Positions 18,041-62,735 of a stretch of 64,000 nucleotides of DNA are shown here, piece by piece. The DNA comes from Isoetes taiwanensis (lineage: Eukaryota > Streptophyta > Lycopodiopsida > Isoetales > Isoetaceae): positions 436,284 to 500,283 of the forward strand of contig JAJEKV010000094.1 of assembly GCA_021234155.1 (NCBI GenBank), in the 5' to 3' direction. Position numbers and translations under genes: made by a program. Below the pieces are notes generated by a model that saw only the letters and a list, made by a program, of their open reading frames with translations, searched no databases and had not been told where the DNA came from. Within the stretch, counting starts at the first letter, position 1. Every line of letters starts with the position of its first letter.

Positions 18041-18047
18041 TTTTAGT

Positions 18048-20235: not shown

Positions 20236-20240
20236 CCCGT

Positions 20241-23836: not shown

Positions 23837-25756
23837 GATATGGATTCTGGTAGTACAAAGTTCTTCTTTAGGGTTGCAAATAGTAGATTGTTGAGGAACT
23901 CCTTTACTGAGGTTAAGGATGAGACCCACTATACTTCGCATCCACTCAAAGGGATATTGCTAACACTTTGCATGCTAAATTTAAGGATATCCGTCAGTGT
24001 AAGCCTATTCCTTCCAATGATCTCCAGAATGCTAATGCTTTTAAGTCTCTCATTGACAATACTCTTTCTTTTGCCTCTGATTCTATGGATTGCTCAATGA
24101 TCTCTTTGCCTTCACAAGATGAAATCTTTAACATTCTTAATAGTTTCAACAATGGGAAGTCTCTTGGTCCAGATGGCCTTCCTGCTGAATTCTATGTTAA
24201 ATTCTGGGATATTCTTAAAAATGATCTTACTTCTCTTGTGCATGCCTTCTGGAGTGCTGAGCATTTGCATCCTTCTATTTCTAGTGGTTTCATCTCCTTG
24301 ATTCCCAAGGTCGATCATCCGACCAATCTTCAAGATTGGAGGCCTATCTCTTTAACAAACATTACTTTTAAGCTTTGTGCTAAAAAATCATTGCTCTAAG
24401 AATTATCTCCGGAAGAATATCAAACCCTAAATCAATCTACTTTTCTTTCCAAGCGATATATTCTAGATAATTATGTGGCTGCTATGGAGGGTCTCCACTG
24501 GAATAAGATCTCTAAGCAGACTTACGTTCTTCTTAAACTGAATTTTAAACGAGCTTTTGATTCAGTGAGATGGGATTTTCTTGATTTTGCAATGTCTAAG
24601 CTTGGTTTTCTTCCCAAGCTAAGAAATCTCATTTTTCGGCCTTAATTCTAGATGCAATTGAGTCGTTCTTATCAATGGTTCTTCATTTAAATTCTTCCCC
24701 TTACTTGTGGTATTAGGCAAGGTTGTCCCCTTGCTCCTTATCTTTTTCTAGTTGCAGCTGAGTTCTTTACTAAAGCTATTTCTCATTATCAGAATCTTGG
24801 TCTTATTAAAGATCTTCGGCTTCCAATGAATCTCTTAGTATTCTACAATATGCTGATGACTCTTTTTCCTTTCTTGATGCTGATAATTAAATATTGAGTT
24901 CTTTATGAAAATTCTTAAGCAATTCTCAGTTGCTTCTAGTATCCACCTTAACCTTGACAAGAGATTGATAGTTGGAGATACTACTCATCAAAGTGTGGCT
25001 GGTATTAAAGTTCTCTCCCCTCTTCAAGCTACTATAAATTGTTGGGTATGCCTCTATTGTGGGATCCTATTCTTTCTAGAATCAAGAAGAAGCTTAATAA
25101 TTATAGGACTACTATATCCCTTGCTGGTAGAACTATAATTATAAACTCAGTCTTAACGAGCTCTCATGTATACTTCTCCACTGCTCTAGTAGCTCCTAAA
25201 TTAATCTATCATGATCTTGAGAAAATTATAAGAGGCTTTATCCGAAATGGTAAACATCTTGTGAACTGGGGCTCTATAAAGGTCATAGGGGGACTTGGCT
25301 GCAAGAATTTATTTCTTCAAGCTCAATCCTTAGCAGGTAAGTTCATCCGAAGGCCATTCATGGTAATCAATCTCCTCAGCCTCTAAGTTCATTAGATATT
25401 GATTTATAAAAGTCATCCTTATGGTTATCCTTCTATTCAAAGATTCCGCTTCTCACTCACTGCTTTTGTTAATCTATAAGCCTACCACCAATATCTCTCC
25501 TCCATGTGCAATTTAATTAAAACATGGAATTCTAATTCTCCAAACTATGCTTTTGTTTCAAGAGATAAACTTCATGGTGAAATGCCTATTTTCTCGAATC
25601 CAATTCTTGCAGATCATGATTCTTCTATGCTAGCTATTCGACATCCAAAGATCCGCATCTAAATGGTCCGATGTTTGGTTTCATTAAAGACCTTTTCTTA
25701 AAAAGACAGGGATTATCTCTTGGACTAAGCTAAAAGAGCTCATTAGGGGCACCTCG

Positions 25757-25770
25757 ATAAAAAAAAAAAA
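25757..25770 (+). repeat. Poly-A run
   Basis: A short A-run within the 3' third of the L1. It interrupts the frame and may mark a small indel or a basecalling weakness. Confidence 0.6.
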
Positions 25771-26081
25771 GTCTTCCATATTAAGAATCTTTTGTGTAAT
25801 CTCTCTACCACCAGGGAATGGAGATTGGGGGTATTGATGGCAAAGTGGGATATAAGGTGAGGATCTGCAGATAATGCTCTCTTTGCTAATGATGCAAATT
25901 GTAAAGCAATGACAAAGTGGCCAATCAATAATGATCAGCTTAACACCTTATTCTCCAATGTTTGGTTTTTATTGTCCTCCCAAGATCTCTTATTTCATTT
26001 GGTTGGTTGCTAATGGCAGTTTGAATAATCTTTATTCTTTGTCAAGAAAGAATTCTAATGTTTTGGTAGATTGTCCCCATG

Positions 26082-33337: not shown

Positions 33338-33880
33338 CACCACACTACCACACCCCCACCATTACTCCACCACACCACATCATACCACCACACACCACAC
33401 ACACACCACCACCACCACCACCACCACACACCCCACACACCACCACCACACCATTCACCACACACCACATCCGCTCGTGAATATGATAGTTGGTGTATGG
33501 TCTATGGTGTATGGTGTGTGGTGAATGGTGTGGTGTGTGGTGGAGTGTGTGGTGGGGTATGTGGTGAATGGTGTGGTGTGTGGTGGGATGTGCCTGCTCG
33601 TGAATATGATAGTTGGTGTATGGTCTATGGTGTATGGTGTGTGGTGAATGGTGTGGTGTGTGGTGGGGTGAGTGGTGGGGTGTGTGGTGGGGTGTGTGGT
33701 GAATGGTGTGGTGTGTGGTGGGATGTGCTCGCTCGTGAATATGATAGTTGGTGTATGGTCTATGGTGTATGGTGTGTGGTGAATGGTGTGGTGTGGTGGG
33801 GTGTGTGGTGAATGGTGTGGTGCGTGGTGGGATGTGCCTGCTCGGGTGAATATGATAGTGTGGGGCATGGTATGGTGCAT
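33338..33880. repeat. Strand-switching AC/GT minisatellite
   Basis: 33338-33472 is (CAC/CCA)-rich. From 33473 onward the same sequence class is on the other strand (GGTGTG-rich). The second part is built of units starting 'ctcgtgaatatgatagt' at about 33474, 33598, 33732 and 33842, each followed by 'tggtgtatggtctatggtg' and variable runs of 'tgtggtggg'. Long open frames on both strands (His/Thr-rich minus, Val/Trp/Cys-rich plus) are repeat artefacts. The G-rich strand has many GGTG/GGG runs with G-quadruplex potential, and the two halves can fold back on each other. Confidence 0.95.
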
Positions 33881-34442
33881 GGTTTGGTGGTATACACACC
33901 CTAACAGCTTTAGTGTTCATTTCATGCGATGGTATTGTTCAAGAGGTTTCCGACCAACATCCGTAAATTTTTGGCGATGCTTCAGATGCTTCAAGATGCA
34001 TTTAAAGAAAAAATACTCAACATATTTTCCTATTGGTCACCGGTTACCATATTTTGTTAGTGTGCAGATCATAAATTCTCGCACCTTGAAATTCCTTTGT
34101 TGGCTTTAATGTTTGTTTTGGTATACTATTTCAAGAATTGTACTTTGCATTTTATAATTAATGACAAAAACCGCCATTAACTTGAGTTGCACCAAAAACT
34201 TGAGTTGCAAACTAAGTACCAAACATGTTTCTTATATCTATACGTAAAGGATAGAAATAGTTCGCTTAACTAAAAGAACAAAGGAAACTCGTGAGAACAA
34301 GAAAAGCAAAAAAAATAGTCACAACAAATTGTAGAGAAGAGGAGTTCTCATTTAATGAAAAAGCTTTACAAAAAATGGAGTCACAAGGACTATTGCTTCG
34401 TGGTTTAATTAAAAGTTTTACAAAGAATAGTCACAAGGACTA

Positions 34443-41825: not shown

Positions 41826-44575
41826 TGGTCGCTTATGTCTTCGAATGGACAGATCGCGGACCGCTAAAATAGTCCGACCTCGCCGATGGCGGCCCGATCC
41901 GCCGTGATCCGGGCCGGGCAAGGATTTGTGAAAGGCAATCGGCTACAAGAAGGGCACAATGCTCTGATCTTTGCCGCACCTACAGCTTCGCTATAGCATA
42001 TGCCTCGCATTCAAAGGTAAATTTTTATGATGTTTTGGGCTTTCTTGCATGAGAAGCCGATGGCGGCAATGTTCACATAGGTAAAGCAAATCGCTCGATT
42101 GTAAAATTTTGATTAGGTCTTTAGGCTTCGATGAATTTGCCTCAATTTTGACAGTAACTGCCGTGGTTTTATCGACATTTCATCTATATCTATTCGATGC
42201 AGGTGCATCGGGCCTAATTCTTTCCGACAATACCCGATAGGTGCTCTCAAAACTTTAGCTATGGAGCAAGAACCGTGGTTCATATTCTTTACTCGCTGTG
42301 GCTTCTTGGTGGGTTTTTTGTTCCCTTATCTTTAAGGTACTTTTTTGGTTGCGCCTATTGAAAACTAATATAGCTTTCTCGGACCAAACGGTTCTTGTTG
42401 CTTATTGTATGGGGCATGGATAAATCTCATTTCATTTCATTTCTATACTGTGGAAGCCCATGCTAGATGATTATGTAATCTCTATTCAATATAGCTTTGG
42501 GGAATGCTTTGTGATGTTTTGTTTGCCAAATGAGTCCATTTATTAGAGCAAATAATATATAGCTAGGGCTGCATTGCACTTTCTAGATATGTGCCCCAAA
42601 AATAAAATAACAAATAGAACATTGAAATTTATGAAACTTTTCTCCAAATGGTTCAAAGTATGGGGTGATGTGATACTTCTTTTCTCAAATTTATCTTCTT
42701 CCTTATCCTCTATGCTCTTTGTTGTACATTTTTGACCCATAGAGAGATTTGTAGGAGCAGTTGGAGGTTAGCCGAGGTGTGCATATTCATCCCTCCTCAG
42801 ATACCCGGATGATGTGGTACTCATATCCTCTTCCCTCAAGGTCGCCAACATCATTTATTGGCACCAAGGGCCATTCAATCCTTTTCCAAGAGGTGTAACC
42901 ATGAAAGTTTTGAGAAGAATATAGCAAAAGAAAGAAAAAAAACATAAGCAAATATTTAAAAGAGAAAAACAGGACTCGATAAAATCATGCTTTGAGCCCG
43001 CTAGGAAAAAAGACAAAAGTTTCCTAATTTCAAAGTTCCAGCTTTTGTTTTTCTCATTTTTATGCACGTATCTAGAGGGTCGCAATGCTCCCACCATATA
43101 TGATAATTGTCAGTAGTAAATCTCATATACCCAAATGGTCTCTCTTGAACATTAATATAATCTTTCTTTATCTTTTTGACCTCTCTCCTTTGGCGGTGGC
43201 TATGGTGCTAACCCTAGCAACCCCATTTACCTGAATGAATGTCATCCACAAATGATCCAAGAGCCACCCACCTTTTTTCGGCCTACCTTGTCCACTTTTG
43301 GACTACCAATTTAGTCTTTTTCTCGTCCATTTGTCGTTCCTACTGTTGGGACCATTTCTTTTCCTTAACCTCACAATTTGACCTTCTCCTTTGCCAAAAC
43401 CATCCTCGTCTTTGTTCGGAATGTATGAAGATTCTTCGATCGTTACACCAAGACAATTGCCAACTTCTAGCTCTATTGGAACAGAACTCCTTACTCGGGC
43501 TTTCGCTGACCCCAGCATTTTGTGCTTCAACTCGAGGTATTTGAATGAACTGTTAGCATGTGTTTACATTTACTAGAGACAAATGACAAATCTTAGGGCA
43601 AAAGCTGCAAGCATCGAGTTCAACAAATCAAAGTTGCCTAAATTGAGCAATTACAAAACAGCTTGGGATGGAAAACGCCAGCGCACACTAACAAATGGGT
43701 GGAAGTGGTTAGGAAAAACAACTTTTAGAGCCGCTTAATGATGTGAAACCACCATTTCTGAGGAAGAAAGAAAGAAAGAAAGAACGAAAGAAAGATTTAT
43801 TAACGCCTACGTAAGACCCGAAAGGTCTATGAGACCATAACACATACGTAATTCAAGGACTCCGTGAGGAAAACCCTTCTCATATCTAAAATATACAAAC
43901 AAAAATATTAATTTAACGTAACTTATAGTGAAAATATAAGAATCTGCTCAAGTAGGGTTTGATGGGGATAGCCCATTCGCTCCTCGTGGACTACCGCAAG
44001 GTAATTTATAATACCCTTTCTTGGCTTGCTTTGATGCTTGATGCTCGGCCTCTTTCGAAAGACCTTTTATGTTTCATGACCACTGATCGCTTTATCTTCT
44101 TAGAGCGATGCTGCCAAAGTCACCCCTAGAATCGATACTTCCTCTTCGTGGATGCCTCCAATATCATCTTATCATCGCTTGACTCGGATGAAAAGAAATT
44201 AGTTATTTCGCTTGCTTCAGCACGTTGGATTCTTTTGTTTGAGAATGTTTCTCCTTTCTAGGATAGTTTTATATACAAAGTGAGATACATATTTCTAATC
44301 GTAATATTCTATCACCGTCATAGAGATGTGGGGTCTCTAAAAGACAATGATATCTGCCTCTAATGATGTAGTAGGTTGGGGTAAAAATAATGTTCCACTC
44401 AGCCATGTTTAAATCGCACATTGGGCATTCGATCTTCATGACTAATATTTTTTTAAGCCCTACCAACCTCAATCTCCAAGTGGTGAAATGACACTCTAAA
44501 CCGCCCCATAGAGTATCTCACTTTATTCGGCAGATCAATATCCAAATATCCGTGCCTTTTACGATGAAACCATCT
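41826..44575 (+). repeat. Second copy of the ~2.75-kb direct repeat, CTG/CAG-depleted
   Basis: It is colinear with 1-2809. Typical pairs, first copy versus this copy: 'gacctgctaa'/'gaccgctaa', 'ttctggattg'/'ctcgattg', 'ggctgtcaacatc'/'ggtcgccaacatc', 'tgcagctattg'/'tgcgcctattg'. Sequence without CTG/CAG is almost unchanged over long runs. It includes the LINE RT scrap (about 42780-42905), the GAAA tail (about 43770-43795), the 3' hairpin (near 43815) and the LINE C-terminal Cys/His segment (44575-44270), all with extra frame breaks relative to the first copy. Confidence 0.92.
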
Positions 44576-46465: not shown

Positions 46466-46860
46466 TTAATTTTTGAACTTCTGATCGACGAAAAGCCCAG
46501 CAACGCTGGGCAATTTTTCTAGTAATAATAATAATACTAGTAACGGTGCCCAGCGTTGCTGGGCAAAAATTGAGAGCTTGTAAATGTTTTGGCCAAAATG
46601 AGAAAAGCGTGTAGTAATAATCCAACTTTTGTAACCAAGCCGAATTTTGGCCGAATGCCTGTCAACATCTGCGTTCGCTATGGATGTCGCGATCACACCG
46701 GATATTTCTTTTTCTCTTTTTGATCGGGATATTAAACTGTTGCAAATATGTTTTATACTTCTAAAATATGTTTTATTAGAAAAATACATACATAAGTTTT
46801 CACCTTGATGTACAGAACCTGAACCTATCCCTGCTTCAAACTGGCTACATATCATTCGAG
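46466..46860 (-). mobile_element. Repeat with mirrored GCCCAGC hairpins
   Basis: GCCCAGCAACGCTGGGC (46495-46511) and its exact reverse complement (46548-46564) face each other across a (TAA)n-containing 36-bp spacer that itself carries 'ctagta...tactag'. A 129-codon minus frame runs through the block (IATSIANADVDRHSAKIRLG), but I take this as chance or a short transposon-encoded piece. The arrangement looks like two termini of the same small element family inserted head to head at a TAA repeat. Confidence 0.4.
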
Positions 46861-48900
46861 GTGTATTATCGTTTGGGGTGTATTAGAATTTTTTGGGGCC
46901 ATTAGATCATGGCACATTTTAGGGAAGATTTCCTGTGCATCCATATGACCCGTCCGTTGAGAAAATTTATACCATTTAAGACATGGCCACAACTTTACAA
47001 ACCACTAAGGGTTCTGCAAAAAAATATAAAAGGGGTTTCTCAACCTCTACTTTATAATGTTCTCTCCTATGCTAGGTATTAGCATTACTCTAAATCTTGT
47101 CCATTTTTATTTAATTTGGGAAAGTCATCCTTTCGAGCAATAAACTGGATCCATCTTGCATGCGCTGAGTTTTCCATGTTGATCTGCAGAGTCTGGCACT
47201 AAAACATTTTGGATCTGTAAACGGGAAAACGCGATTAAGGAAATGGGGAAAATTCATTCATGAATTTGTTTTCCAAAACGTAAACTGCTTACCTGCCATA
47301 TGTCATACGCAGGATTAAGAATATACATTGGCGTTTGAATAAAAGGGAGATGATATTGTGGCAAGAAGCACTGCAGAACATTCACAATGGCATCTTTGAA
47401 TCATTTTAGATTCTTTGTATATCACTTGCTAAAAGGAAATACCCGAGCAGCAGCCTCATGTTGGGAAATACAACTGTTTGGCAAACTTTTTCAAAGATGT
47501 TGCAAAAAACAAAAAGAACAACTTAGAAGAAGCACAATAGAAACTAAATTAATAGTTAAAAGACAAATGAGCTAAGAAATAGATAGATTAACATATAACC
47601 ATCACTATAATGGAGTTTCAAAATTTTCCGCCTTTAGATGCTTCTAGATAAAATGGTACTAAATCTCATTCACATAAACCTATGAAGTTTTCAATGCCAT
47701 TTCTAGCCAGTGGTCTGTAGCATGTGAAGCAAAATCCAACTTGAGTAGAAATGCCACTGGTTCTTCCGTAAAAGGGAGAGGAATAAAAGAAATATTGGAT
47801 AATTACCTGAAGTACGCTACTGCATGCCAACGTGATCAAGAACATACAGTAGCCTGCTGCGATAGCTAATCTCACAACAATTTGTTCATGTGAACTAACT
47901 CACCTAAGCAACAGTGCAGTGGTTCAGACTATCAGGCATCCCTCCAAGTTTAGGCCTTTGAAACTGCCATACTAATATACCAAACCTGGCCTTAAATACA
48001 GTTTTGTTTCAAGCTCCTTTAAGCTTCAATCCTTAAAGCTTGGAAATCTACATTCTATAAGAAGGAAAAAACATTTCTTACATACCTAAACTGGCGTATC
48101 ATTCTTCTCTTTTTGAGGTATTGAACTCAAGCAAGAATCTACATTTCAAGTAACAACTAATACAAACTGCAACTGCTTGTATAACAGAGCAGACGAATCC
48201 AGTGTATGAGAGACGAAGTCCAGAGCAAGCAATTTCTGCCAGCTACCTTTTTCTAAAACATCACGCTGGCAATCTTTCGGCATGACATCTTTAGCTCTAA
48301 GCTGCATGGTTTATCCACCAGAGCAACTGTGTCCCACACAAATCATAAATAAGGTGAGATCCAACAACGAAAATACAGGTGCATCAAATGTAAAGCATGA
48401 AATAGACTCTCGTATCTGGAAAAGAAATAACATGCACCTAAATTTTTTTATTTAAAGGATAGAACGGCATGGCATAGAAGCAAACCGGCACTGAAGAACA
48501 AAAAATGGAGTTTGGCATTTTTCTGGTCTAATTCGTATTCATTCAACCCATACCTAGATTTGTTTCTTCAAAAGGGACAGCAGCATGGTGAAGACGCATT
48601 GGTCTGAAGAATGGCAAAATAGAGCTAGCTTTGAGCGGAACCCGGGATTAGTTTAATGGCCCTTCCAAATCCATGCCCCATCTATTCTTGAAGAAGCATT
48701 TTAATCTGATGCTCTGCCCAGAGACAAAAGCTACCATAAATATGTATAGCAGAATAAGGTGAAGAAAGGGCTATGGCGGCAATAGCGTCCGGCGATAGCC
48801 TAAGAAAATTATCTGACGCCCTCGCTAACCCTAAGAATATGACGTGGCATAATCTCCTCCATTGGCTTCATCAAATCTGGAGCGTCCAAATTAGGGCTGG
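46861..48900 (-). other. CTG/CAG-intact island with splice-site-like motifs
   Basis: Trinucleotides CTG and CAG have normal or high density here. On the minus strand, donor-like sites occur near 47292 (GGCAGGTAAGC), 47806 (TTCAGGTAATT) and 48092 (TTTAGGTATGTAAG), and the frame ending at the second reads LAIAAGYCMFLITLACSSVL. I cannot assign a protein. It could be the intron-rich part of a gene transcribed leftward, or a long non-coding transcript. Confidence 0.3.
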
Positions 48901-48914
48901 GTCCAACACTTACA

Positions 48915-51900
48915 CAATAACATTATAATATAAGATGATTAAATCGAGCTTCTTAAGACCCAAAAGGGCATGAAGCTGAAATACAATAAAGTATCAAGTA
49001 TTGTGCAGAGTTTTTAACATAAGATGATGCTTATCTATATCGATATGAATGTCTCCAGACTCGGAGAGGATCCATCCGCCACGAGAGAAAAAGGTTAGAG
49101 TGTTCAGCCTCATGTCTCGCCTTTATTGGATCATATTGTGTGCATCAAGAAGGGTATGTTCTTCATCTTCAATCTGGCCGCCTTCACAAAACAGTAAAAT
49201 TCTTTCTCCCCTGGGATTTTCATCCATCGACCTTGTTTTAGATTCTTAGGTGATGAGAGCTGAGCCTATATCTTGCAATGACTTTCCTGGCACGTGGAGA
49301 TGTTTTCAGATAATCTTGTTCTGCGTATATTAACATTGGGTTAATCTCTGACTGATAAAACTCCATCTTTGTACCCTTTTCTTGCCACAGTTTCTCAATG
49401 ACCTTGGCTCCCCAACTGATCGCGGATCCCTTCGCCGTCGGTAGGCCAATTATGTTCTTCCAGTCCCCATTTATGTAACCACTCTTTTACTTCTTGGAAC
49501 CACCCTTGGCTGCTCGAGGTTTGCATTGCAAGGTGAGGAAGCCGACTCTCCTCTAGATTGCTGATCCTGTTAACATATGATAATGTTTGGCACAAAGCTT
49601 CACCTCTAAGGGAAGCATCCCCTGTCTCGCTAAAATCATTGCATAAGGCACTTGTTTTTATCCCAAGTTCTTCCCCGGCGAAGAGTTTGAGCACTCCTTC
49701 TATCTTCTCCCACATTTTGCTCGATAGAGATGGCCCCAAATTGGACAGCCCATATAGCACTACAGCTTGCACCGTGGTACGAAAAGAGCATTTTTGGAGC
49801 TTCCATCCCCGCTAAACCAGCTTTATGGCATCTTTGCAACATGCCGTGGCAGGCACGCTTTGCCTCCTCGCAATGCGTTTTCAATGCAAACCTTCTAGCT
49901 GTAATTTGAGCAGAATTCCAATCCTAGATATTTGTAAACATTAACCAATTCCAACCGCTCATTCTGATAAAAAGAAATCTGGTTTTGAGAACGTGCCACT
50001 TACCATGCATTTAGACTTGGATAAGTTCACCTTCATACATTTGTCCAGGCAAAAGAGGGCCGATTGTCTAGATATGTTTGTAACCCTTGTGAAGTTTAGA
50101 GAGAAGGACCACGCCATCTCGCATATATTAAGAGTTGGATAAGAAAGTTTCCAAGCAATGTTCCAAATTGTCCTTTGGATCTCATCCATTCTTCTAGGGA
50201 GTCAATGTAAAGCCCAAGAGCTTAGGGAGATAAGGGGCAGCCTTGTTTCACGCCACCGTGTGAACCTCATCCGTAGTTTTTCACAGAAAGTTTAGCAATT
50301 ACCTCTTCATACAATTTGGCCACAATGCCCCACGTATTCTCCGGAAGGCCTAACTCTTCCATCCTCTCTTCTAGGCCTGCTCTGGGACTGAGTCGAAAAA
50401 GCCTTCAGAAATCAATGAAAGCCATGTGCAACGATTTTTCCGGGACGCTTAGCTCTCCATTAAGACTCTGATCGAAAAATGTGATCATAAGTGCTATGAT
50501 CCTTCCCAAATCCTCGCTTGGGTGATGGTCCTCTTATCCGAGAATCAGCCCATGCAGCAATTTTCTTCTCGAGAATGCCTCCAAAGATTTTTGGAAAAAT
50601 GATGCCTACTAAGATTGTTCTCAGAAGCTCCCCGCGATCCCGCCTATCTCCCCGCTTTGTAAATAGATACTACTCGCATGTTTGCCATTGTCTAGGGAGA
50701 CCCTCCTTTGTCGCATCATTAAGAACCTTCGTGAGATATGGAATCAGCCCATCTCCTCCCCATTTTATCAATTCAAATTAAAGCCCTTCTAAATCGACCG
50801 CCTTCCCATTTGCCAATGATCGAAAGTGTACTCTTTAACCTCTGCCCTAAGTGAAAAGATCTTCTAAAATGGTGCAACCTTTCATCTTTGAAGCCCGTGG
50901 GGCATAATACAATTCCTTTGACAAATTCTAGCGCCTTTGATGTCTCCAAATTATGCCCTTCGTGGTGGCATGGCCAACTTAGACCAAAGCTTCTTGGCTT
51001 TTCTTCAAAAGCGCACTAAGGCCACTTGCCGAGTCTTGTAAAAGTCCGCCTTCTTCTTCTTTAAAGCTTTTTGTACCAATCGAGGTTTCATTTTCAGACC
51101 CTCGACGGCAATGACCTTCTCGGGCTATGAAGCATTCTTGGTCCCACCAAGACTTGGATTTCAGCGTGGGCAAGCTCGGGTTTCTCCAAAGCTTTTTCCG
51201 GCTGCATTCAGATAACTTGGGATAAGGATTGAGCATTTGGGCGCTTCCTTACGCTTTCAAGCAATCTAGACAAAGCTTGTTGGTAGGCGTCTCTTTTCAC
51301 ATAATCCAGCTTTGATTTTTGGGGCAAATTCCTTTTCCACTTTGCATTTTCGAAAACTCATATCCAAAGCAAAAAGGGACAGTACATGGTCCAACTCGTT
51401 GCTTGTCAATCGCCTTTGAGATAAGGGACTCGCTTCAGGGATCAGCGCTTAGCAGATAATCAACCGTCATCGCCTCCTTGCTAAGTAAAACATGTTGGCT
51501 TGTTAGTGCCCGGATATTTCAAATGCCATTGAGTATTTTAGATTGCGATGGAGCCAAGCTCTAACAAAGAGCTTACCCATTTGGTTTTTTATTCTGTTAG
51601 CCGAAGCTTCACAAATTGGGGATCATAGACTTCTTCTAACATCCGACATCCTCGGTATATTTGATACATTGCATATTTCGTGTCCTGGCATTAAAATCCC
51701 CTACTAGGACCTGTCCTTTATCTTGAAAATCTTGAATCTGCAATGTAAGAGCATGGTATGGATGGTCCGAGTCCATTCCTTCCTGTTTATACACCTTCAT
51801 ATTCAACGGCGCATAGTAGCAAGCAGCCAGGAATATTGGGTGAGATGTTCCTACTTTTATCCACATAAATTGACTCAGGTGTCTTTTTGTGCCACTCGAG

Positions 51901-52145
51901 ATGCTATCTCAAATTGTTTTCGGGCATACAATGCTATGCCTCCAAAACCACGACCCATGCACGAATCTTTCATATTCCATACTGCATCAACAAAGGCAAA
52001 ACCTGTCAAATCTGGTAATGAACTTGACTGGTGCTGCCATGTTTCCAGAAAAATTATAACATCTGCATTTTCCCAAATGTGTACTGTTGCATCTATTTTA
52101 GCCTGGTGTAAACCATGGATATTCCAAAGACATGACCTTTAGGTC
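48915..52145 (-). mobile_element. Second LINE (endonuclease + RT + Cys/His end), nearly full length
   Basis: Read on the minus strand. The endonuclease starts near 52135 and includes ADVIIFLETWQ, MGRGFGGIALYARK, FMWIKVG (51866) and GQVLVGDFNART (~51695). After a linker, the RT region has NGKAVDLEGL.FELIKWG (~50800), LIPYLTKVLNDATKEGLPRQ (~50740-50690) and FGKDHSTYDHIF (~50500). WNIAWKLSYPTLNICEM (~50150) and FCLDKCMKVNLSKSKCMV (~50060-50010) follow. C-terminal pieces are GEALCQTLSYVNR (~49600) and a GRW...CTQYD Cys/His end (~49200-49050). The 3' end near 48970-48930 has GCCCTTTTGGGTCTTAAG, resembling the hairpins of the other LINE ends. Several frameshifts fall at CTG/CAG-like positions. Confidence 0.82.
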
Positions 52146-52379
52146 TCGCTTTCCCTATTCTCGATTTTCTTCTCTTTGTTACAATGGGTGGTCCATCCAT
52201 CATAAGCGAATTTCATTAAAGTTGGAAATTTCGCGATTCCAATTTCTCGTGAAATCGCTTTCTTCCCTTTTATCACACATTTATGGCTAGATATGGCACT
52301 ATTTGCTTAAAAAGAAACCAGCTTATCATGCAAAAAACCGCTACATTTAATATAAAACAAATACGGTTTTAGTTGTCGA

Positions 52380-52720
52380 AGAGAACTATGGCGCCATTTA
52401 CTTGGAAAGTATGAGGAAAAGCTGCCCGAGAAACACAAAAAGCAAATATTAAATTGCCAAAAAAAGCCTCAAAGAAGCAAACAAAATGGCGCCGGCCGCT
52501 CCTTTAGCTTAGAAATAACCACAAAGCAAATAGCGTTGGAACGCCGATATTTGCTTTAACGCGAAAGGAAGCAATGGTGCAGCGCCGCTTATTTGCTTGA
52601 ACGGAAAGCAAGCAAATAGTGCGACGCTTATTTAAGAGCTTGTGCAAATAGTGCAAAGCCGCTTATTTGGCGTGAACGTGAAGACCAAGCAAATAGTGCT
52701 CGCGCCATTTTGCTATAGAT
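52380..52720. repeat. AAATGGCGC / GCAAATAGTGC motif cluster 1
   Basis: 'atggcgccatttac' (52388), 'aaaatggcgccgg' (52485) and 'cgcgccatttt' (52703), plus variants such as 'caaatagtgc' (three times), occur in both orientations with 'cttattt' spacers. The cluster lies just downstream of the ParB/methyltransferase-like gene on its strand and between it and the LINE. Confidence 0.7.
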
Positions 52721-52879
52721 AACACATATTTTCGAAGACCATGTAGATATATATATTAATAGAAATATTATATAAGATACAATTTTTCAAAACACGTAAT
52801 TTTTTTTAATAGTCATTGGCTAAGTGTTCATCGAGACTTTCTCATAATCATCCGTGTTAATTTTATCAAGGGTCAATTT

Positions 52880-55800
52880 GATCCCCGCTCGCTCCAGCTT
52901 TGGGCCGACGCCTCACCTTTCTCTCAGATGAGAAGCTTCTTCGTCTGCCCCTTCTCGAGATTCACCATCTTGCAAAGTCAAGACTTCCCGCTGGCATGCT
53001 GGTCAATGGCCTTTGGGTCAAGCCGGGGTACATGACGCTCTCGACCCTACCTGTAATGCCCGCCACGATTTCATCTTTCCTAACTCATGCTCAGATGTCA
53101 CAATCCGATTCTTCCTACATGAAGGGATGCCCTAGAGAAGGCTCCACCGTAGAAGAAATCTAGTACAATGTTACCTTGAGGGCAGAGCTTATCAACAAGG
53201 TAGAACGCAGCTTGCAGGACCAATCTGTTTATGCACCGATATATTCTCCTCCATACCCCTCGCCAACTCCACTTAAACCCTGCCTTGCATGAGTTTTTTA
53301 GCCATAACATCGCCTCACTTCCGGCATGCTTCCTTTAGGAATAGGAGGAATTTATGGAGCTTTCTAGGATGGTCGCCAAATAGCCTAAGGTCCGTGTCTT
53401 CGCCGCTCTCCGCCTCAGCGTCGAAATCCTCAGAAGCAAATAGAAGAGCTTGTGGCTCTTTGATTCCCTCGAACCACCGTAGCTCCGTGCTCTTCTTCAT
53501 AGATTCCTACAAACACTCTAGACCCGATTCTAGTCTTTCAAGCGACCGGCAAATAGTAAGTTATGTTCCGCCCGACGAAACATAGAATCCAAGATGTCTC
53601 TTGGTCTCGCCATCCGTGAGACATTATTGAAGAACGCTGTTACAGCCTCACTTTTCCAAGCCGAGTAAGCCGCCTTGCATCTAAACATATCATGCCGGCA
53701 GTAGAACCGCACGCTCGCTCGAATCCCCCCAGTGACATGCTCCACAAACCATCTTGGCGTGGCCTTTTCTCGCTTTCAGTCAAGGATTTTTCAATGGACC
53801 TGGCCAAGGAGAATGGCATGTTACCATGAACTCCCCTTTTGAGTATTCCTTCCTGCACTCCACTTATGGTGGCATACCCCAAAACCGTAAGTGCTTAATC
53901 CGAGAAGTGGTCTCGTGGCTTTCCTTAGGTCCTCTCGAATTTCTTGTACTTAGTGCCAATCTGACCGCAATGAAGTGCGATCTCCTTCTTCATGTAAGCA
54001 AGTACTCTTAAGTTCTCATACCGCCTTGAAGAAATTATCGCTTTTGTAATCTGAGGTGACTTTGACGATATATCCCCGCTTAAAGTTTCTTCGAGGACCT
54101 TTCTACAATCATCATAGTCCAAGCCCCTCATGCATCTAAGGTAGTTGTCACCGGCAATCTTTTGTCTTTAGCAAAATTGATTACTATAGCTTGACCCCTC
54201 GTTGTCCTTAGTTCTCCCTTCCTCCATTTGTTCCACATCCGGGCGAAGAGTGCATAGACATCATCCGGCATGAAGACAAACCGATTGACATCCTTCGTGT
54301 GTTTGCCCCTCTAATCTTGTCTCCATTTCAAGGTAGTGCCGCAAGAGAGTCGGGCATTTTAGAATTTCAAATGTTGCTATTTACATCTAATGGCGCAATG
54401 CGCTTATTTGAATTGAAATGGCGCAAGGCTTATTTGAATCGAAATGGCGCAAAAAAGCGCCATTTGATCGAAATGGCGCAGTGCTTTTGATTTACATCAA
54501 ATAGCGCAGCTGCCATTTCGATAAAATGAATGGGTAAGGAGACGAAAACATACCTTGTACTCGCACTTCTTGATCGCCCTTACCAAATAGGGCTGGTCTT
54601 CCGCGATTCCCGGTAATCGCTATAAGATGGTGGATCTGATCCACATATGGTTCCTTGAAGACAGCTTTGCTACTATATCATTCACATCCACACCGAAATA
54701 AGAAGGTCCGTGTCACCGATCTCTCCGTAAAGAACTCGCGATATTCTATAGACATAGATCTTGCCGAGCTCAGCCTAGCATCCTCTCGTCCCCAACTTAT
54801 CGCATTACACGAGCCGAAAGCAAAGAAATGACCGAATGATTACCATTGATAATATAAAATCTTTTCCGAATCAAGTCAGATTCCTGTGACCAGCTCAGCA
54901 ACTCCTTTGTATCCGGATCAAAGGGCACTACATCTCATCGGAGTGAATACCGGTGTGGATCCTCAAAGAAATGATTTGCGTAGCCTCCTAACATGCTCGG
55001 GGTTAATAACCCTGGCGGTCATATTAGGTGGGGCCTCTTCTAGATCCCAGATAGATATTCTTCTGGTGTATGTGACTCCAAGGGGGAACATGTGGCCGTG
55101 CTTTTGTATTTTCTTTAGTGTTTCCTCTGCCATTTCTTCTTCTTCGTCACGGTCCATCTTTAGTTCCTCGGGCACTTCAAGATCTGCAATCTTTTGTAAT
55201 TTCCTTTGCCCTTATCTCTGCTTTGGTTTGTGGCTTTCTCTTTGCTGGAGTGCTATCTCGGCCGTGGATGCTACATTTCTTATGTGCTTTGTAGCCTCCT
55301 TATTGTCACTAATAGTGCGGGTTACTATCGTGAGCTTTTCATCAAGAAGCTTTCGTGACTTCACTTGAGAATCATGTTTGTGAGCCTCGCCTCATCCCTC
55401 TTCTCATCCCTATGTCCCTCCCCTTCTCAACTTCGCCCTTCTTCTTGTTCTCAGATCCCCGTACATCACCACCTCCACTGCTTTTGTTCCTTTGCCGCCT
55501 TTGGTGGCATTTTTAATTTTACACCTTTTCTCTCAGATTCTCCCAAAGAGCCATCCGGCCGTCCATTATCGGGCCGCATAAGTTGTTTCGAGAGCTTCGC
55601 TTTTACAATGTAGGACACGGGAGTTTTTGACATGTCCATGGCCGCCGCATGTATCATCAATCCTTTGAGGATCTCTACCGCGCCTTTGATATCCGCTGCT
55701 CTCGACTCATAAGATGGCAGCGCCAACCTTTTTTCTTGGCCGATGCTGCTTGGTCCTTCATGCCGACTCCATCATTGCAAGCTCGTGAGTAATCGCCAAT

Positions 55801-56100
55801 CCATGCAATAGAGATCAATGCCGCCACTCGACCGATCTTCCATCAGGTAACCAAGAAAGTCAAGTCTTCCTTGTTTCTTTTTGACTTCTCTCATGTTGAC
55901 AATGATGCCCATCCGGGCCACTCTGCTGAGGCTCCTTCTTCAATTGCACTGATTTGACAAGGAGGCAAAGTTCTCGCTTCTTGTCTCCCCTTTGGTTGGG
56001 TCTACGCCACCAAGGGTATGGCTCTAACGATCTCCATACACCAAGACCTTCCAAATGAGGACTATGCTCCTCAAGTCACCACGCTCCATTTCTTCTACAA
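52880..56100 (-). pseudogene. ParB/Srx-like plus methyltransferase-motif-like gene, fragmented
   Basis: Minus-strand blocks in order: helical MALPSYESRAADIKGAVEIL and VSYIVKAKLSKQL (55726-55600); TYTRRISIWDLEEAPPNMTA and NPEHVRRLRKSF (~55085-54965), then in another frame VVPFDPDTKELLSW and RFYIINGNHSVISLLSA (~54930-54800). This order fits a ParB/sulfiredoxin-like fold (R.I..L...P.N.R...HV..L..S... then IINGNHR..A). A donor-like AAG|GTATGT sits at about 54555, followed by an intron-like gap holding AAATGGCGC motifs. Then RFVFMPDDVYALFARMWNKW, MRGLDYDDCRKVLEE, FYCRHDMFRCKAAYSAWKSE and, near 53170, GNIVLDFFYGGAFSRASLHV-GR, which resembles motif I of a DNA methyltransferase (D.F.GSGT...AA...GR). 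No DPPY motif was seen. Frameshifts are frequent; the fold calls are by eye. Confidence 0.42.
54385..54530. repeat. AAATGGCGC motif cluster 2 (in a putative intron)
   Basis: 'gaaatggcgca' occurs at about 54417, 54441 and 54470, 'agcgccatttg' at 54455, and related 'caaatagcgcagc' at 54498. The cluster falls between the donor-like site at 54555 and the next coding block of the ParB-like gene. Confidence 0.85.
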
Positions 56101-56154
56101 GACCAGCCACCAAGCAGGTAAGCATGGTGAGAGAAATGGCATGTGCTAGAAAGT

Positions 56155-56545
56155 TAAAACAGTAAACGGTATTTAGATTAAATGGCGCAATTTAGATCTG
56201 TAAAATGGCGCACTGGGCCATTTATTTAGCTTTTTATATAATAGAGCAAATGGCGCAGTGCTTATTTAGACTAAAATGGCGCAAATGGGCCATTTTGAAG
56301 GGGACGAAGGGACCCATAAAGAGCTTAATTAAAGCCTAGTTTAGCGCCATTTAGTTTAAATGGCGACTGCGCTACTATTTAGTCTAAAATGGCGCAGTGC
56401 CATTTGCTCTTTTATGGGTCCGCTTCTACAAGAATATTAACAGACATTATAGAAATGGCGCTACCCATTTCACAAACTATAGGAGGAAAAGGTCGCTACA
56501 AACCCACCCTTCTTCCTAATGAAATGGCGCCCGCGCGCCCATTTC
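56155..56545. repeat. AAATGGCGC motif cluster 3
   Basis: At least seven 'aaatggcgc' (about 56173, 56203, 56248, 56273, 56391, 56453 and 56520) and a 'gcgccattt' (56346) lie in about 390 bp, alternating with 'cttatttag' and 'gggccatttt'. It sits immediately upstream (5') of the ParB-like gene. Confidence 0.9.
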
Positions 56546-56754
56546 AGCTTACCTAAGACACTACACTTCAGCTACCTAAGACACTACCTAAGAAACAACA
56601 GATACTAACCTCGAAGCCCGCTCCCCGGATTTTGATCAAGATTGCGCCATTGTATAAAAGTATAAAAGTACACTAACCGTATAAATCCTACTCCACTTTT
56701 TTTTCCGAAAGCCCCCTGATCAACAAAGCGCCAGAGAGAGAAGATGGTTGAATA

Positions 56755-56835
56755 GGAGAGAGAATGTGCAAGGGCGCTTAGGCGCCAGGGGCGCTAAGGC
56801 TAAGGCGAAGGCTAAGGCTAAGGCTGAGGCGAGAA
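56755..56835 (+). repeat. GGCGCT/GCTAAG short tandem repeat
   Basis: 'gggcgcttaggcgcc' is followed by several 'aaggctaaggc' units. Open in places, but clearly simple sequence. Confidence 0.8.
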
Positions 56836-56939
56836 AAGAACAATGAAATTGAAAATGAAAATTGACTGAAAGAAAAGAAAAGAAAAGTCTGGGAAAGAAA
56901 AGAAAACCAATTTTACCCGCCTCGCCTCTTCAAATTTAT

Positions 56940-57180
56940 ACTGTCATTCCGCCTCGAAATTTTGAAAATTTCGATTTTTCCCCCCCAAGTCCGCTCTCTA
57001 CAAATTTTAAAAATTTTGAATTTTCCCCGCCAACCGCTTTCTCCCGCCGCTCACCATTATAAATCTTAGGTAGTTTAAGTCATTCCGCCAAGACGCCAGA
57101 AACCCGCCTACTACCAAATTTGAAATTTGAATTTGCCCGCCTGTATTTTGAACTTTGAATTTGCCCGCCGCCCACTTCAT
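56940..57180 (+). repeat. Degenerate repeat with TTTGCCCGCC-type sites
   Basis: 'gaatttgcccgcc' occurs twice (about 57130 and 57160), with 'aattttccccgccaac' (~57015) and 'attttacccgcc' (~56911). TTT/TTG-CCCGC resembles the relaxed E2F-site consensus, but the surrounding 'aaattttgaa' repeats show these come from local duplication. Confidence 0.5.
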
Positions 57181-57429
57181 AATGGGCGCTTTTCACCGCT
57201 CATTGCCGTGAGGCGCATATGGTCATTAGAAGGCGCTATACTCGACCCGACGGCTATGCATTTTATGCACCTCGCCCCTCGCTTTCAATATTCGTGAGGT
57301 TTTGCGCTTTTGAGATCTCTTTTTGGTCGAAAGCAGGGCTTTTCTCCGACGCCTATTCCGCCTTTAGACGCTTGGTTCCTTAGTCGATAGCAAAGAGCTT
57401 TGCCGCCTTGGCCGCTTGTCTTTTTTTGT

Positions 57430-57625
57430 ACCGCTTAGCCCTTGTCTTCATTCTTCAGCGCGCAGCTTTCGTTTCTTAGGGCGCCGGCTTCATTCTTCAG
57501 CGCTATTTCATTCCAGTGGCGCCGCCTTCATTTTTCAGCGCTTTGTCCAGATTCTCCAAGCGCTTGTCCGCATTGTCAAGATTATTCAGCGCTTGACCAA
57601 ATTCTTCAGCGCATTCTCCTCGATA
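57430..57625 (+). repeat. Degenerate minisatellite with ATTCTTCAGCGC core
   Basis: 'cattcttcagcgc' or variants recur about six times in 190 bp with spacings of roughly 20-50 bp. The Ser/Phe-rich frames across it are artefacts. Confidence 0.8.
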
Positions 57626-57844
57626 TGGCGATCCTAATCGCCAATGACGCCCGTGTTAGAGGCTATTCAGTTCTAGTAAAATGTTTTAGTATGTTTAATG
57701 TAGGATGTAGGATGTTAAATATTTTAATATGTTTAAGGGTAGATCTTCTCTATCTTGTTCAAGAGATAAGTTCTCAACAATTGATGTCTTGTCAATCTTG
57801 TAGTAATAGAAATCCATAACTCTAGCTATTAGATATAGCATTTA

Positions 57845-58115
57845 GAATAAAGATGCCATTTACCGTCAATGGGCCATTTTCCTTGAATGGAGCAAATAAA
57901 ATTCCTTGAAATGGAGCACCGCGCTTATTTCCCTTTAAAATGACGCAAATATTTAATGGGAAATGGCGCAAATGCCCATTTCAAGGGAATGGCGCAAATG
58001 CTCCATTTCAAGGAAAATGGCCTATTGATTGTAAATGGCGCAAATTCGCGCCATTTCAAGGTAAATGAGCGCGATCAAGGCCATTTCAGAAATGGAGCAC
58101 CGCTACCATTTGTCT
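57845..58115. repeat. AAATGGCGC motif cluster 4
   Basis: 'gaaatggcgcaaatg' (57960), 'gtaaatggcgcaaat' (58033), 'cgcgccatttc' (58048) and variants such as 'aaatggagcac' (twice) and 'ggccatttt' alternate in both orientations with 'tcaaggaaa' spacers. It lies just upstream of the En/Spm-like reading frame. Confidence 0.85.
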
Positions 58116-58224
58116 CATGTCGTATAATTTCTTTCACATTTTCGCTTATTTTCACTAAGTATATGTCATCGAGGGTTGCATGTCTCTAACAAGTATATAT
58201 ATATATGTGTATTGATTCTCACAG

Positions 58225-59010
58225 AAAAGGCCCCCTCGCAAATCCTTGTCGATGGGGATGTGGTAGCTGCCGTGGGACATGAATTGCATAGAGGCCATCT
58301 CGCATGGCAGAACATTCCATGGTGCAATGTGGTCGCGGAGGTCACCGAAGCCATAGTGCCCACCCATGTGCTTCCCATTCCGTGAGGGAGCGTATAACAT
58401 TGCCGGGCCGGGGGACATTTATCGAATGGCCTCAAATCAAGTGAAATAATCGCGGAAGGAGCCCCAACTTACTCATCGGAAACGCCCGATAATCGAAACC
58501 CCGAACTTGCCTAGTAGTCCCTCCACAACATCATCGACTCGCTAAGTCGATCGCCCGCCCTTCAAACAAGAAGCAAAGACAGAATATGGTGAACCTTGTC
58601 GCAATAATACCGTGGGTTGGTAAGGGTGTCTTGGTGAATAGAACTTGCATCCATGGGAAGAATGTTGACGCACTCAACGAAGCAAAGGTAAGTTACCGAG
58701 GTCGTGGTGCCTACCCACATCCTTCCGATTCCATGTGATGGCGCCGACAACATTGAAGAGGTCAGGGCACGCTTATCGAATGGCCTCGCAAAGATATAAG
58801 ATATCATGCCATTGATTTAGCTACTCCATCACCGACCTCGATTGTAGAATCAGAGGGCAATGTCGATGCGATGAAGAAATTGATCCTACAAAGGGATCTA
58901 GGTACACGCTTTTCCTCGCAGGATAGCATCGATGATGATGAACCACCACCTAGTTTCTCAAGAACTCCATCTCTTGATAAGCATTGCCACATTCTTCATG
59001 CATGTGACCG
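58225..59010 (+). pseudogene. En/Spm-like transposon protein, duplicated C-terminal-type domain
   Basis: Plus frame 58240-58440: VDGDVVAAVGHELH, NVVAEVTEAIVPTHVLPIP, then in another frame TLPG.GTFIEWPQ. Near 58690-58800 a second unit reads VTEVVVPTHILPIP, then RLSNGLAK. The pattern (G.V.....VHG..L......V.V......LP.P......G.FI.WP) is that of a repeated domain in plant En/Spm (CACTA)-associated proteins (I believe DUF8039; unverified). No transposase core is present. A Ser/Asp-rich tail follows (SSQDSIDDDEPPPSFSRTPS). Confidence 0.45.
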
Positions 59011-59529
59011 GCAAATATGCAGAGGCCATAATTGTCTTCGATCCCCGTGATGCCGCTGACGATGAATTTTAGGAGACTCAAAGGTGGGGCTCAGGGGGAA
59101 AGATCCTTCCCCGCACTAATTACAGAGGATCTCAAATGTCATGCTTGTGCGTAAAGGCCGCCAGAAAATTACCTTGTACAATGGGAAAATAGCGATGTGA
59201 TGTCAGCAGGATGGAAGGACTGCCTCACAACATCCGCAAGCTCGAGAAGCTAAAGAAAATGAGGATATGGAAATAGAATCTTTGAGGACAACATTCAGGC
59301 TCAATTCAAACGAAAAAGGAAGTATACTTACACACATAGGATTCCAAGACAACCCAAGGGAAAGAGCAAAGAGGAAAGGCTATGCTCCACAACTTCAATC
59401 AATAAGTTCATGAAGACAAGTCACCTGCAAAAATACTTGCAACAAGAAACTTACCAAGCATCAAGTATGTGAATTAAGAAAAGAATTTTTATCTCAACCA
59501 TACAATGCAAGGGTTACGATTTTTTTGAC

Positions 59530-61620
59530 GGGCCGAAAGTGACTTACACAGAGAAGGAGAGGACAGATAGTGCTCAAGGGATGGAATTGCCCTCACCGGT
59601 GGCGATGGCTTTTAGGTATCACCACCAACATTTTACAATTGGAGAAACAGATTTGAAGCAGTGCAAAGGTAGTCAACATGGTAATATCGGCTCTAAGAAG
59701 CCCGTGATCCACTACACCGGCCAATCAATGTGTGCTAGACAGATTCATTCAGAGAATGTCAAAGTATTCCCCATAGGAGCAAAAAAAAAGAGGTAGAGAT
59801 GATGTAAGAGAAAATGTACCTAAGCTTCCTTCCATTCTTAATAAGAAGCTTATACATAAAGAAGTTGGAGCAAAAGGAAGAGCTTACAGAACAACCTGTA
59901 GCCTTGAACTCTTTTTATAGTATATGGAAAAGGGAATTTCCAGATGTTAGCATTGCAAAAAATACAGCCTTCTAAATGCAACATCTCAAGGTGGTAATTA
60001 AGCAAAAAGCCGGAAAAAAAAAAAAGATACAAGAGAGAGACGAAATCTTGCAATTCAACGTCGGGCTCATATATGCTAGAGCAACGCCTTTGCGTAAGTC
60101 AATATTGGCATTGGAGAGCATTGTCACAAATGTCTCCTCGAAAATCATCTATGTATAATACATGATAAGATGGATCAGGTTAAGACTTTAGTGCCTAGAA
60201 GTCATCATCTAGCAAAATCAGATGGAGAGGTGATCGCTTGAAGAGTAGTTTGACAGAGCTTTGACTCATGGGCATGGTGGTCGTGCCTATGGTCATTTTT
60301 CACTTGATTTATGGAAAGATGATTCAAACTTCCACATTGGTTCACTTTCTAGAATATTGCATAACTTGGAATTGGTGCAAGAGGACAAGATAGGTGACTT
60401 ATGTGGAAGTAAGCCCAGAGATTGCAAATGGATGCAAGCAAATAAGGACATCAATCCTTTGAAGAACAAACTTGCTTCCATGGGAGAAGTATTGCCAAAT
60501 ACTTCAACTACAACTAATCCCGAGGTGTTCAACCCTCTTCCCAAATCTCTATTTGCAACTTGATAATGCAAAGGGCAAAACAAAAATAGGTATGTCTTTT
60601 CATACTTATCTTATTTGACTTGGCTTAAGGTCTTTGATGAGATCCAAGTGGGCTTTTTATGATGGTCGGCCACACCCATGATGATATTGATGCTTTATTT
60701 GGAAATTTTTCAACCTTTGATGAGTTCGGGTTTGATGCTTTGACACTACCGTGAGCTACTTTACTTGTTTAGCAATGCAATGCAAAATCCCCAATTCCAT
60801 ACTTTATTGATGAAGTTCCAAATTGAAGGATTTTGTGAAGGGATTCATCCCTCGATAAGGGCCAACGCCTGGTTGGGCATAATCGAACCATTGCTCTTCA
60901 AATTTAAGATGGCGGAGATTGGCCTGTTATGCAATACAAAATGCGCCCTACACATAAAGAGTGGCTTCCAAAGCAGATTCTCCGTGAGTTAGAATGTGGA
61001 AAGAGGATGAACATGGTCAGCCAATGATACCAAGTGGTGTGCCACAAAATATTCCTCCTAGACCAACATTGAAAGATCTTCCGTGGTTGAAGGATAGCAT
61101 CAACAAATACATCTCCCTATGGAAGGACATATGTAAGAATCAAGAAAGTAGCTTGTTTGCAAGGCAATACACGGCAAGTGTTGAGTATTGGAGCCAGCCT
61201 TTCTTATCTCTTTGAGGATGTTGCTTCAGACGCCCTCAAAATGATGCATTTTGGCCACAAACAAGACAAGCTCCTCTAGAACAAATAGCATTTGTTCCAG
61301 AGGTCGACGAGATTCGCCTTTGGTCACACCCACCTTTACCATCTTATTGTGGCCCGCCGATGGTCGCCCGCTGTTGCCTCTTGAAGAGTTTGATCCTCAC
61401 GCATATGTGACAAAGGGTATGTTTGTTCTAGTCGACTGAGATGATAACACCGCCACTTGGTTAGATATGCAGAGGAGAATGTTGTTCTTGATCCGTAATC
61501 TACATATTTTGGCCATATTTTTGTATCGTGGTGGAAGCCTACCGAGGGGACTACAAAGACCGCTTGACTAAGCGCCATGCCTAATCCTTCCGATCCTTCA
61601 AGGTATGAAAATTTAGATGC
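59530..61620 (+). pseudogene. Transposon-type reading-frame pieces, unassigned
   Basis: Plus-strand pieces: MELPSPVAMAFRYHHQHF (59539-59796), SLDLWKDDSNFHIGSLSRIL (60261-60563), KFQIEGFCEGIHPSIRANAW (60765-60992), DEHGQPMIPSGVPQNIPPRP (60994-61215) and VPEVDEIRLWSHPPLP (~61290-61340). They look like real protein composition, all on one strand, each ended by a nearby stop. They most likely continue the En/Spm-like gene at 58.2 kb. I recognise no catalytic motif. Confidence 0.3.
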
Positions 61621-61977
61621 TATTCATTATGCCCGATGCCAATGGCAAGAGGCCAAAAAAAAAAATTCAAATATATTATAGACATGTGGAAAGACATAGC
61701 ACATTGTTCATCTTAATACATGAGATCTTGTACTTGTAATACATATCTTTCATCTTAATACATAACATTACTATATTTGTGATCATATATAACCGCTACA
61801 TCTTTAATATATAAATGCATACATGATTCATAGATAAGATGGTCGGTGCTTATATGTTGAACAGTGATTCAATCATCTTCGTGATCTCAGAGTAGTGATC
61901 CCCTCGATATCTCATAGCTCATGCGCCAGAAGCCATATCGATGGATCATAACACCTAATTGACGCAGGCAATGAATC

Positions 61978-62103
61978 TCACCAAAAGCTTTTCTTCGCAG
62001 TAGGATCAAGAAGAAGATGCCTATCTAGGCAACCAACAAGATCGAGTGGCTCATCGAGCACTTGATCGCCGATGTGGTGAATAGAAGAAGGAAAATAATC
62101 CAT
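61978..62103 (-). CDS. Small ORF behind duplicated promoter, copy 2
   Basis: A 41-codon frame starts MDYFPSSIHHIGDQVLDE at the ATG that follows the duplicated promoter block at 62104-62160 and ends at 61978. The peptide shows no domain and no clear similarity to the copy-1 peptide, so the ORF may simply be carried along by the promoter duplication. Confidence 0.25.
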   Translation of the reverse strand: MDYFPSSIHHIGDQVLDEPLDLVGCLDRHLLLDPTAKKSFW

Positions 62104-62160
62104 GGGAGACGAATGACCCTAGCCCCAATGGAGCTGTTTTTATAGTGAAGTAAAATTATT
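62104..62160 (-). promoter_or_regulatory. Duplicated core promoter-like block, copy 2
   Basis: The minus strand reads 'aataattttacttcactataaaaa', a short leader with 'gctccattgg', then 'cgtctcccATGg'. The same order occurs at 62681-62735. TATA-like CTATAAAA lies about 50 bp before the ATG. Confidence 0.5.
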
Positions 62161-62477
62161 GGGGTGGATCAGAAGCCATCATTGAGCGTATACAAGTATC
62201 ATGTACTGCATGTATGATTCTATCATGTACTCGATTCTATACATCAACTAATATTCACTATGCTTATATTATATATATCCCAATGTATACAAAATCATAA
62301 GTGCTTATATTAGGTATACATATCATAGATGATTCACTCGCCATTGCACGACTAATATAGGTGTGATTGAAAATAAAAGACAACTTGCATAGTTCATAGG
62401 TACTCATGTCATTATTATATCCTTAGCGCATACGCATTCACTCATCATCAACATCAAAGCACGTGATGCTATTCAGC

Positions 62478-62681
62478 TCAAAGATCTCCCCGATCGTGAA
62501 GCCAATAAAGGTGGACCTTAACACGAAAGTGAGCTTCCCCGCAAGCACTCAGTAGACCATCCGCTTTGGACCGCAGCCATGGATCAAGTTTGATACCATT
62601 TCTGTAGCATTCACACGCATCATTATAGCTAAGGTAGCACCCGGCGGATTGATGTTCTCGACGATCGTGCAAGGAAGCCAT
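62478..62681 (-). CDS. Short TPR-like ORF, copy 1
   Basis: A 67-codon frame starts MASLHDRREHQ and contains YNDACECYRNGIKLDPWL followed by ADGLLSACGEAH. The spacing Y-A-C-Y-G-I-L-D-P matches the second half of a tetratricopeptide (TPR) unit (..A...Y..ALELDP......GL). One TPR unit alone is not a stable domain, so this is either an exon or a gene end. A TATA-containing block lies directly upstream. Confidence 0.35.
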   Translation of the reverse strand: MASLHDRREHQSAGCYLSYNDACECYRNGIKLDPWLRSKADGLLSACGEAHFRVKVHLYWLHDRGDL

Positions 62682-62735
62682 GGGAGATGAATGAGCTCTA
62701 CCACCGATGGAGCGCTTTTATAGTGAAGTAAAATT
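62682..62735 (-). promoter_or_regulatory. Duplicated core promoter-like block, copy 1
   Basis: The minus strand has 'aataattttacttcactataaaa', 'gcgctccatcgg' and 'tcatctcccATGg'; compare copy 2 at 62104-62160. Conservation of the block up to the ATG, but not beyond, is notable. Confidence 0.5.

Follow-up and report, generated by a model that had tools for sequence, protein, structure and literature searches.

Systematic errors of nanopore consensus sequence have been described at Dcm motifs (CCWGG), in which about 70% of the consensus errors of the 2019 ONT basecallers were located and in which Nanopolish often fixed only about 70-80% of the errors (Wick et al., 2019, PMC6591954). To the extent of the sections of that paper at hand, the Dcm errors resemble those reported here in being systematic consensus errors at a 5-methylcytosine motif that the training data did not cover, persisting through consensus and yielding only partially to polishing; they differ in that the motif concerned here is the wider CWG (CTG or CAG throughout) in a plant genome, the altered sites often acquire a CG dinucleotide, the errors are patchy and the methylation is putative. 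Nanopore accuracy is also lower on native plant DNA (Ferguson et al., 2022, PMC9749173; PMC7501810). There, as here, plant methylation is proposed as a cause of the basecalling loss, but a context-resolved consensus error does not appear in the accessible parts of these two papers, and the strings CHG, CAG and CTG are absent from PMC9749173. What is described below is an artefact of a known kind, comparable to that at Dcm sites, in a context for which no report was found in the open-access literature searched, namely CHG-context consensus errors in plant assemblies. The other systems that come close are mutational. CHG is a cytosine methylation context of plants, and both repeat-induced point mutation (RIP) and CHG deamination yield C-to-T transitions and lose CpG. 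The present case is like these in its context-specific and copy-specific change in repeats, and unlike them in its many indels and other substitutions and in a gain of CpG.

The window, that is, the whole 64-kb stretch of Isoetes taiwanensis DNA analysed (contig C1105, positions 436284-500283), begins with one copy of a repeat and carries a second copy beyond a 39-kb unit:

1-2809, forward strand: copy A of the repeat, CWG intact (101)
2810-41825: 39-kb unit between copies A and B, parts of which recur on C1105 on the same strand and on scaffold C980 on the opposite strand
41826-44575, forward strand: copy B of the repeat, CWG damaged (31)

Both copies are present where the first-pass annotation had placed them, and its counts of about 100 and about 30 CTG plus CAG become 101 (CTG 54, CAG 47) and 31 (CTG 15, CAG 16) when made exactly. 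In the pairwise alignment, 46 of the 54 CTG and 37 of the 47 CAG of copy A are altered in copy B. The resulting 83/101 (81/98 once a deletion near 1683-1740 is excluded) is a large majority, although at 82% it falls short of the earlier wording that almost every such site was altered. Control trinucleotides isolated from CWG were altered at rates of 5-18%, far under the CWG rate (CWC 2/40, GWG 2/35, GWC 3/26, CWA 4/70, TWG 4/70, WCG 3/17, and 82/1350 for the remaining isolated trinucleotides). Likewise, 81 of the 126 difference clusters between the two copies touch a CHG site, compared with a mean of 23.6 and a maximum of 37 in 500 random placements. The claim that the copies differ mainly at CTG and CAG is thus upheld, the pattern being strongly non-random. 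Most of the clusters do lie at CHG, but the differences are not confined to CWG: 45 of the 126 clusters make no contact with CHG, and among these are homopolymer-length changes and several changes of CGT to CGC. Against dinucleotide-preserving shuffles, copy A holds 101 CWG where 86.3 are expected (z +2.1), and copy B 31 where 69.0 are expected (z -5.7).

A new CG was gained at 46 of the 83 altered CWG sites. CpG dinucleotides number 43 in copy A and 84 in copy B, of which 54 are new, while 13 of those in copy A are lost. The trinucleotide CCG was altered in copy B at 10 of 13 sites overall but only at 4 of the 7 that lie clear of CWG; pooled over three copies, the altered fractions are 11/41 for CCG and 14/34 for CGG, compared with 8/29 for TCG and 4/37 for CGA. 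Isolated CCG, which is likewise a CHG context, is therefore not clearly affected, and this would fit either lower methylation of CCG or another trigger. A sparing of CCWGG, as might come from a basecaller aware of Dcm, was considered and rejected: CTG preceded by C is altered at 10 of 12 sites and CAG preceded by C at 7 of 8, and altered CCWGG sites are visible in the alignment of the two copies.

Three more full copies of the repeat, at 97, 94 and 91% identity, were found on scaffold C980 (copies C2, C3 and C4). The numbers of CWG per copy are 101 in A, 102 in C2, 64 in C3, 36 in C4 and 31 in B. The clean copies A and C2 have 97 CWG sites in common, and of the 101 sites in A, 4 are altered in C2, 45 in C3, 75 in C4 and 85 in B. 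More than 4 bases away from CWG, however, divergence from A is 4.1% in C2, 3.6% in C3, 4.6% in C4 and 5.1% in B, and columns private to one copy, again away from CWG, number 55 in B, 51 in A, 48 in C4, 20 in C3 and 17 in C2. Since these values are comparable, the damaged copies are neither much older nor much less accurate overall; it is their CWG that suffers. The subsets of CWG lost also differ among the damaged copies, and of the 64 sites altered in both B and C4 only 8 show an identical product.

The two most damaged copies, B and C4, are inverted relative to each other. In element orientation, CTG was changed to CCG or TCG at 18 of the 45 altered CTG of copy B, and the mirror change was seen at none of its 35 altered CAG (Fisher 5.4e-6). 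In C4, also in element orientation, the same changes were found at 3 of 36 CTG and 13 of 34 CAG (Fisher 0.004), and the error spectra of the two copies are alike in contig orientation. An opposite polarity on the element together with the same polarity on the contig points to a one-directional reading or consensus step, rather than to something that operates on the sequence of the element itself. C3, which is less damaged, showed no polarity (p 0.72). The differences belong to the assembly rather than to the DNA element, given the copy-specific damage and the contig-bound polarity of B and C4, though neither C3 nor a second repeat family (below) shows such polarity.

A skew is also seen across the window. 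CGC outnumbers GCG by 544 to 257 and CCG outnumbers CGG by 520 to 284 in the damaged segments, as against 16 to 12 and 37 to 33 in the clean ones. This window-wide skew of CG products was considered as proof of a one-strand consensus and dropped, as it is partly intrinsic to a repeat: window 57001-57600 and eight other copies, picked as good matches to this CWG-poor query, all show the same skew in element orientation (9/9), on both contig strands. Among these nine sequences CWG is no more variable than GWG (45/99 vs 24/54); either this repeat family is natively CWG-poor or all nine copies are damaged. The sign of the skew in sampled stretches of the assembly with at least 10 counts was plus in 12, minus in 11 and even in the rest, with a heterogeneity chi2 of 93.2 (27 df) in damaged tracts and 40.3 (24 df, p 0.02) in clean tracts. 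Because of the repeat-intrinsic skew, only the paired-copy polarity of B and C4 was retained as evidence.

The published I. taiwanensis assembly comprises 204 scaffolds and 909 contigs that total 1658.30 Mb (scaffold N50, 17.40 Mb). As given in the available sections of its description, native high-molecular-weight DNA was sequenced on ONT R9.4.1 flow cells with Guppy 3.1 flip-flop; assembly proceeded through miniasm, racon, pilon with Illumina reads and Bionano scaffolding, followed by two LR_Gapcloser rounds with pilon in between and by purge_haplotigs (PMC8566536). Illumina reads of the project are filed under BioProject PRJNA735564. The stem 'methylat' is absent from the main text of that paper. 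The assembly of the window appears to be this published version 1, and its sequence would hence derive from native DNA read on nanopores.

The difference between copies A and B is very probably an artefact, in which the R9.4.1 basecaller failed at CWG, most likely because of CHG 5-methylcytosine, and in which the failure was left unpolished over most of the region. Native DNA would have been read on R9.4.1 nanopores by a basecaller that fails at CTG and CAG, the cytosines of which are putatively 5-methylcytosine in a context of which its training data contained few examples. A CG-containing string (CCG, TCG, CG, CGT or CGC) would often be emitted in place of CWG; a network meeting 5-methylcytosine mainly before G would favour CG output, and this would account for the gain of CpG. 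The consensus of many reads would leave such a systematic error in place, and short-read polishing with pilon would restore the true sequence only in patches where short reads can be placed, failing over most of the region. The view of the first-pass annotation, in which the long-read consensus is systematically wrong at CWG except in corrected patches, is well supported by the range of 31-102 CWG among the five copies, the contig-bound polarity of B and C4, the small number of single deaminations and the match to a native ONT R9.4.1 assembly. As the trigger of the miscalls, CHG methylation would be the best candidate.

It is improbable that the damaged tracts, while still artefacts, are single uncorrected nanopore reads brought in by gap filling with LR_Gapcloser rather than consensus sequence. 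The assembly did pass through two such rounds with pilon only in between (PMC8566536, methods as available), and a single read strand would yield the one-direction polarity of B and C4. A raw read should, however, have more random errors, and copy B is about as accurate as copy A away from CWG, with 55 private columns against 51 and a divergence from A of 5.1% against 4.1% in the clean C2. Further against single reads, CWG-low patches alternate within 3 kb (e.g., 11, 44 and 10 CWG per kilobase in sampled stretch L060), and the damaged segments of the window reach up to 20 kb.

Genuine mutation in the plant, directed at CWG within repeats and either RIP-like or due to deamination of methylated CHG, is highly improbable, even though the changes are context-specific, repeats are hit and CHG is the methylation context concerned. 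Only 9 single deaminations (CTG to TTG 2, CAG to CAA 6, CAG to TAG 1) occur among the 68 listed products, of 80, of altered CWG in copy B. T-to-C is the commonest A/B substitution (35/126, with C-to-T 15 and G-to-A 16), indels are frequent, CpG is gained and the polarity turns with contig orientation. The changes are not, in the main, the C-to-T and G-to-A transitions expected of RIP or deamination. Ordinary divergence of old paralogues with native CWG variation is scarcely credible. The 4-5% non-CWG divergence between copies is a real background, and a native shortage of CWG is conceivable for one repeat family; but of the 101 CWG of A, 97 are shared by C2, whereas 45 are lost in C3, 75 in C4 and 85 in B, at the same non-CWG divergence.

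Over the whole window, 870 CWG were counted against 1648 expected (sd 35) from 60 dinucleotide-preserving shuffles (z -22.2). A two-state model divides the window into CWG-poor, CpG-rich segments and others, given here with the observed/expected ratio (o/e) of CWG and z against shuffles:

3214-14766: CWG-poor, CpG-rich segment (o/e 0.41, z -10.8)
14767-15940: normal-CWG segment (o/e 1.35, z -0.6)
15941-22358: CWG-poor, CpG-rich segment (o/e 0.49, z -7.5)
22359-26072: LINE-like segment with weak Pfam RVT_1 hits, modelled as clean yet short of CWG (o/e 0.77, z -5.3)
26073-46726: CWG-poor, CpG-rich segment that includes copy B (o/e 0.41, z -16.3)
46727-48757: normal-CWG segment with dispersed repeats (o/e 1.37, z +0.9; 46 genome matches)
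48758-63174: CWG-poor, CpG-rich segment (o/e 0.55, z -12.0), of which the high-copy part 57001-59000 may be natively CWG-poor

Two simple rules for the distribution of these segments were tried and rejected. The rule that clean segments are genes and damaged ones transposons is contradicted by the dispersed repeats in the clean 46727-48757 and by the depleted 57001-59000 being high-copy too; the latter also contradicts the rule that high-copy sequence is clean. As repeats occur in both of these tracts, methylation and polishing success are inseparable here, and the suggestion of the first-pass annotation that depleted segments may map methylated DNA stays a conjecture. The dispersed repeat at 57001-59000 was matched on both strands of many scaffolds among the best 40 of 344 scored candidates.

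Scans of the window gave no tRNA and no Rfam hits, and Pfam searches gave a hit in none of 10 pieces of one set and in one of 10 of another. A tandem array of units of about 109-135 bases, rich in TGGTG, lies at 33472-33894 within a CWG-poor segment. RING/PHD-like reading frames occur at 20243-21070, with Pfam RING hits for 20771-21070 and a weak PHD hit; they may be of ORTHRUS/VIM type. This region may be a gene fragment, possibly captured, since about 1.9 kb (20066-21963) is absent from a sampled piece of a paralogous unit (L099). A frame change beside CTCGC in the fragment was considered as an independent check on the errors and, being weak, was not used.

Parts of the 39-kb unit recur elsewhere, in C1105:400001-424000 and C980:778877-854000. 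Window 7106-11122 has its counterpart in C1105:400001-404000 and window 29005-33031 in C1105:420001-424000, both at about 92%, C980 carries matches to the unit on the other strand, and four sampled pieces are 88-98% identical to it. It was also observed that C4 has the left flank of B on one side and the right flank of A on the other, like the junction of tandem units. When three of these paralogous pairs were compared, 51-88% of the CWG in one partner had no match in the other, compared with 5-29% for controls; both partners are damaged, partly at different sites.

The occurrence of CWG in the rest of the assembly was surveyed on large scaffolds in 40 stretches of 3 kb placed at round coordinates; 4 of these were all N, leaving 36 (108 kilobases). 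Among the one-kilobase bins, 34 of 108 had a CWG o/e below 0.7 and 50 of 108 had one of at least 1.0, although an o/e below 0.7 is not diagnostic alone, as 41 of 108 bins also fall under this value for the natively rare control GWC (mean 0.77). The window, with 50 of 64 bins below 0.7, is worse than the sample (Fisher 2.7e-9), which may be because it is a duplicated region with copies at 88-98%, poor for short-read placement. CWG-low patches occur elsewhere in the assembly too. What sets CWG apart from the controls in the sample is the wider spread of its o/e (sd 0.41 vs 0.22-0.28) and its anticorrelation with CpG. In the sampled bins CWG o/e is correlated with CpG o/e at rho -0.50, against -0.15 to 0 for four control motifs, and inside the window the value is -0.38, against +0.34 for GWC.

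Native CWG variation contributes a share of the low bins in the sample. CWG o/e was 1.17-1.61 at 35 loci that carry the dispersed tail of the repeat, though these had been chosen because they best matched a query that was itself clean. The two-state model (switch rate 1/500) put 50% of the sample in the damaged state; this figure was set aside, since the model also caught CpG-rich stretches with normal CWG (L064 and L090). One sampled stretch, L069 (C1078:3000001-3003000), has a GC content of 0.57 vs 0.35-0.43 in the other listed stretches, and a CCG/CGG skew of 94 vs 57. All-N stretches were noted at L049, L054 (on C1105), L061, L079, L080 and L098, on C1105 and large scaffolds.

The sequence difference between copies A and B is not biology; its practical use is as a caution to those who work with a public reference genome. 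No reliance can be placed on frameshifts, the ages of repeats, the divergence of paralogues or CpG statistics in CWG-low tracts, and the reach of the problem is indicated by the 34 of 108 sampled kilobases, in what appears to be the published lycophyte genome, with a CWG o/e below 0.7. A low CWG o/e combined with a high CpG o/e per kilobase offers an easy way to screen other plant assemblies built from nanopore reads. For the plant itself, one further reading is speculative and, on present evidence, rather doubtful: the miscalls may be a fossil of CHG methylation, with unpolished tracts keeping a record of methylated CWG sites nearly base by base. If so, the methylome of the sequenced tissue would be readable from the FASTA alone, and the 16-18% of CWG retained in copy B would be unmethylated sites. 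The repeat share is given as 38% in I. taiwanensis (PMC8566536, in the section at hand), much lower than the 63.15% given for I. sinensis; damaged repeats that escape masking could contribute to this gap between the two species.
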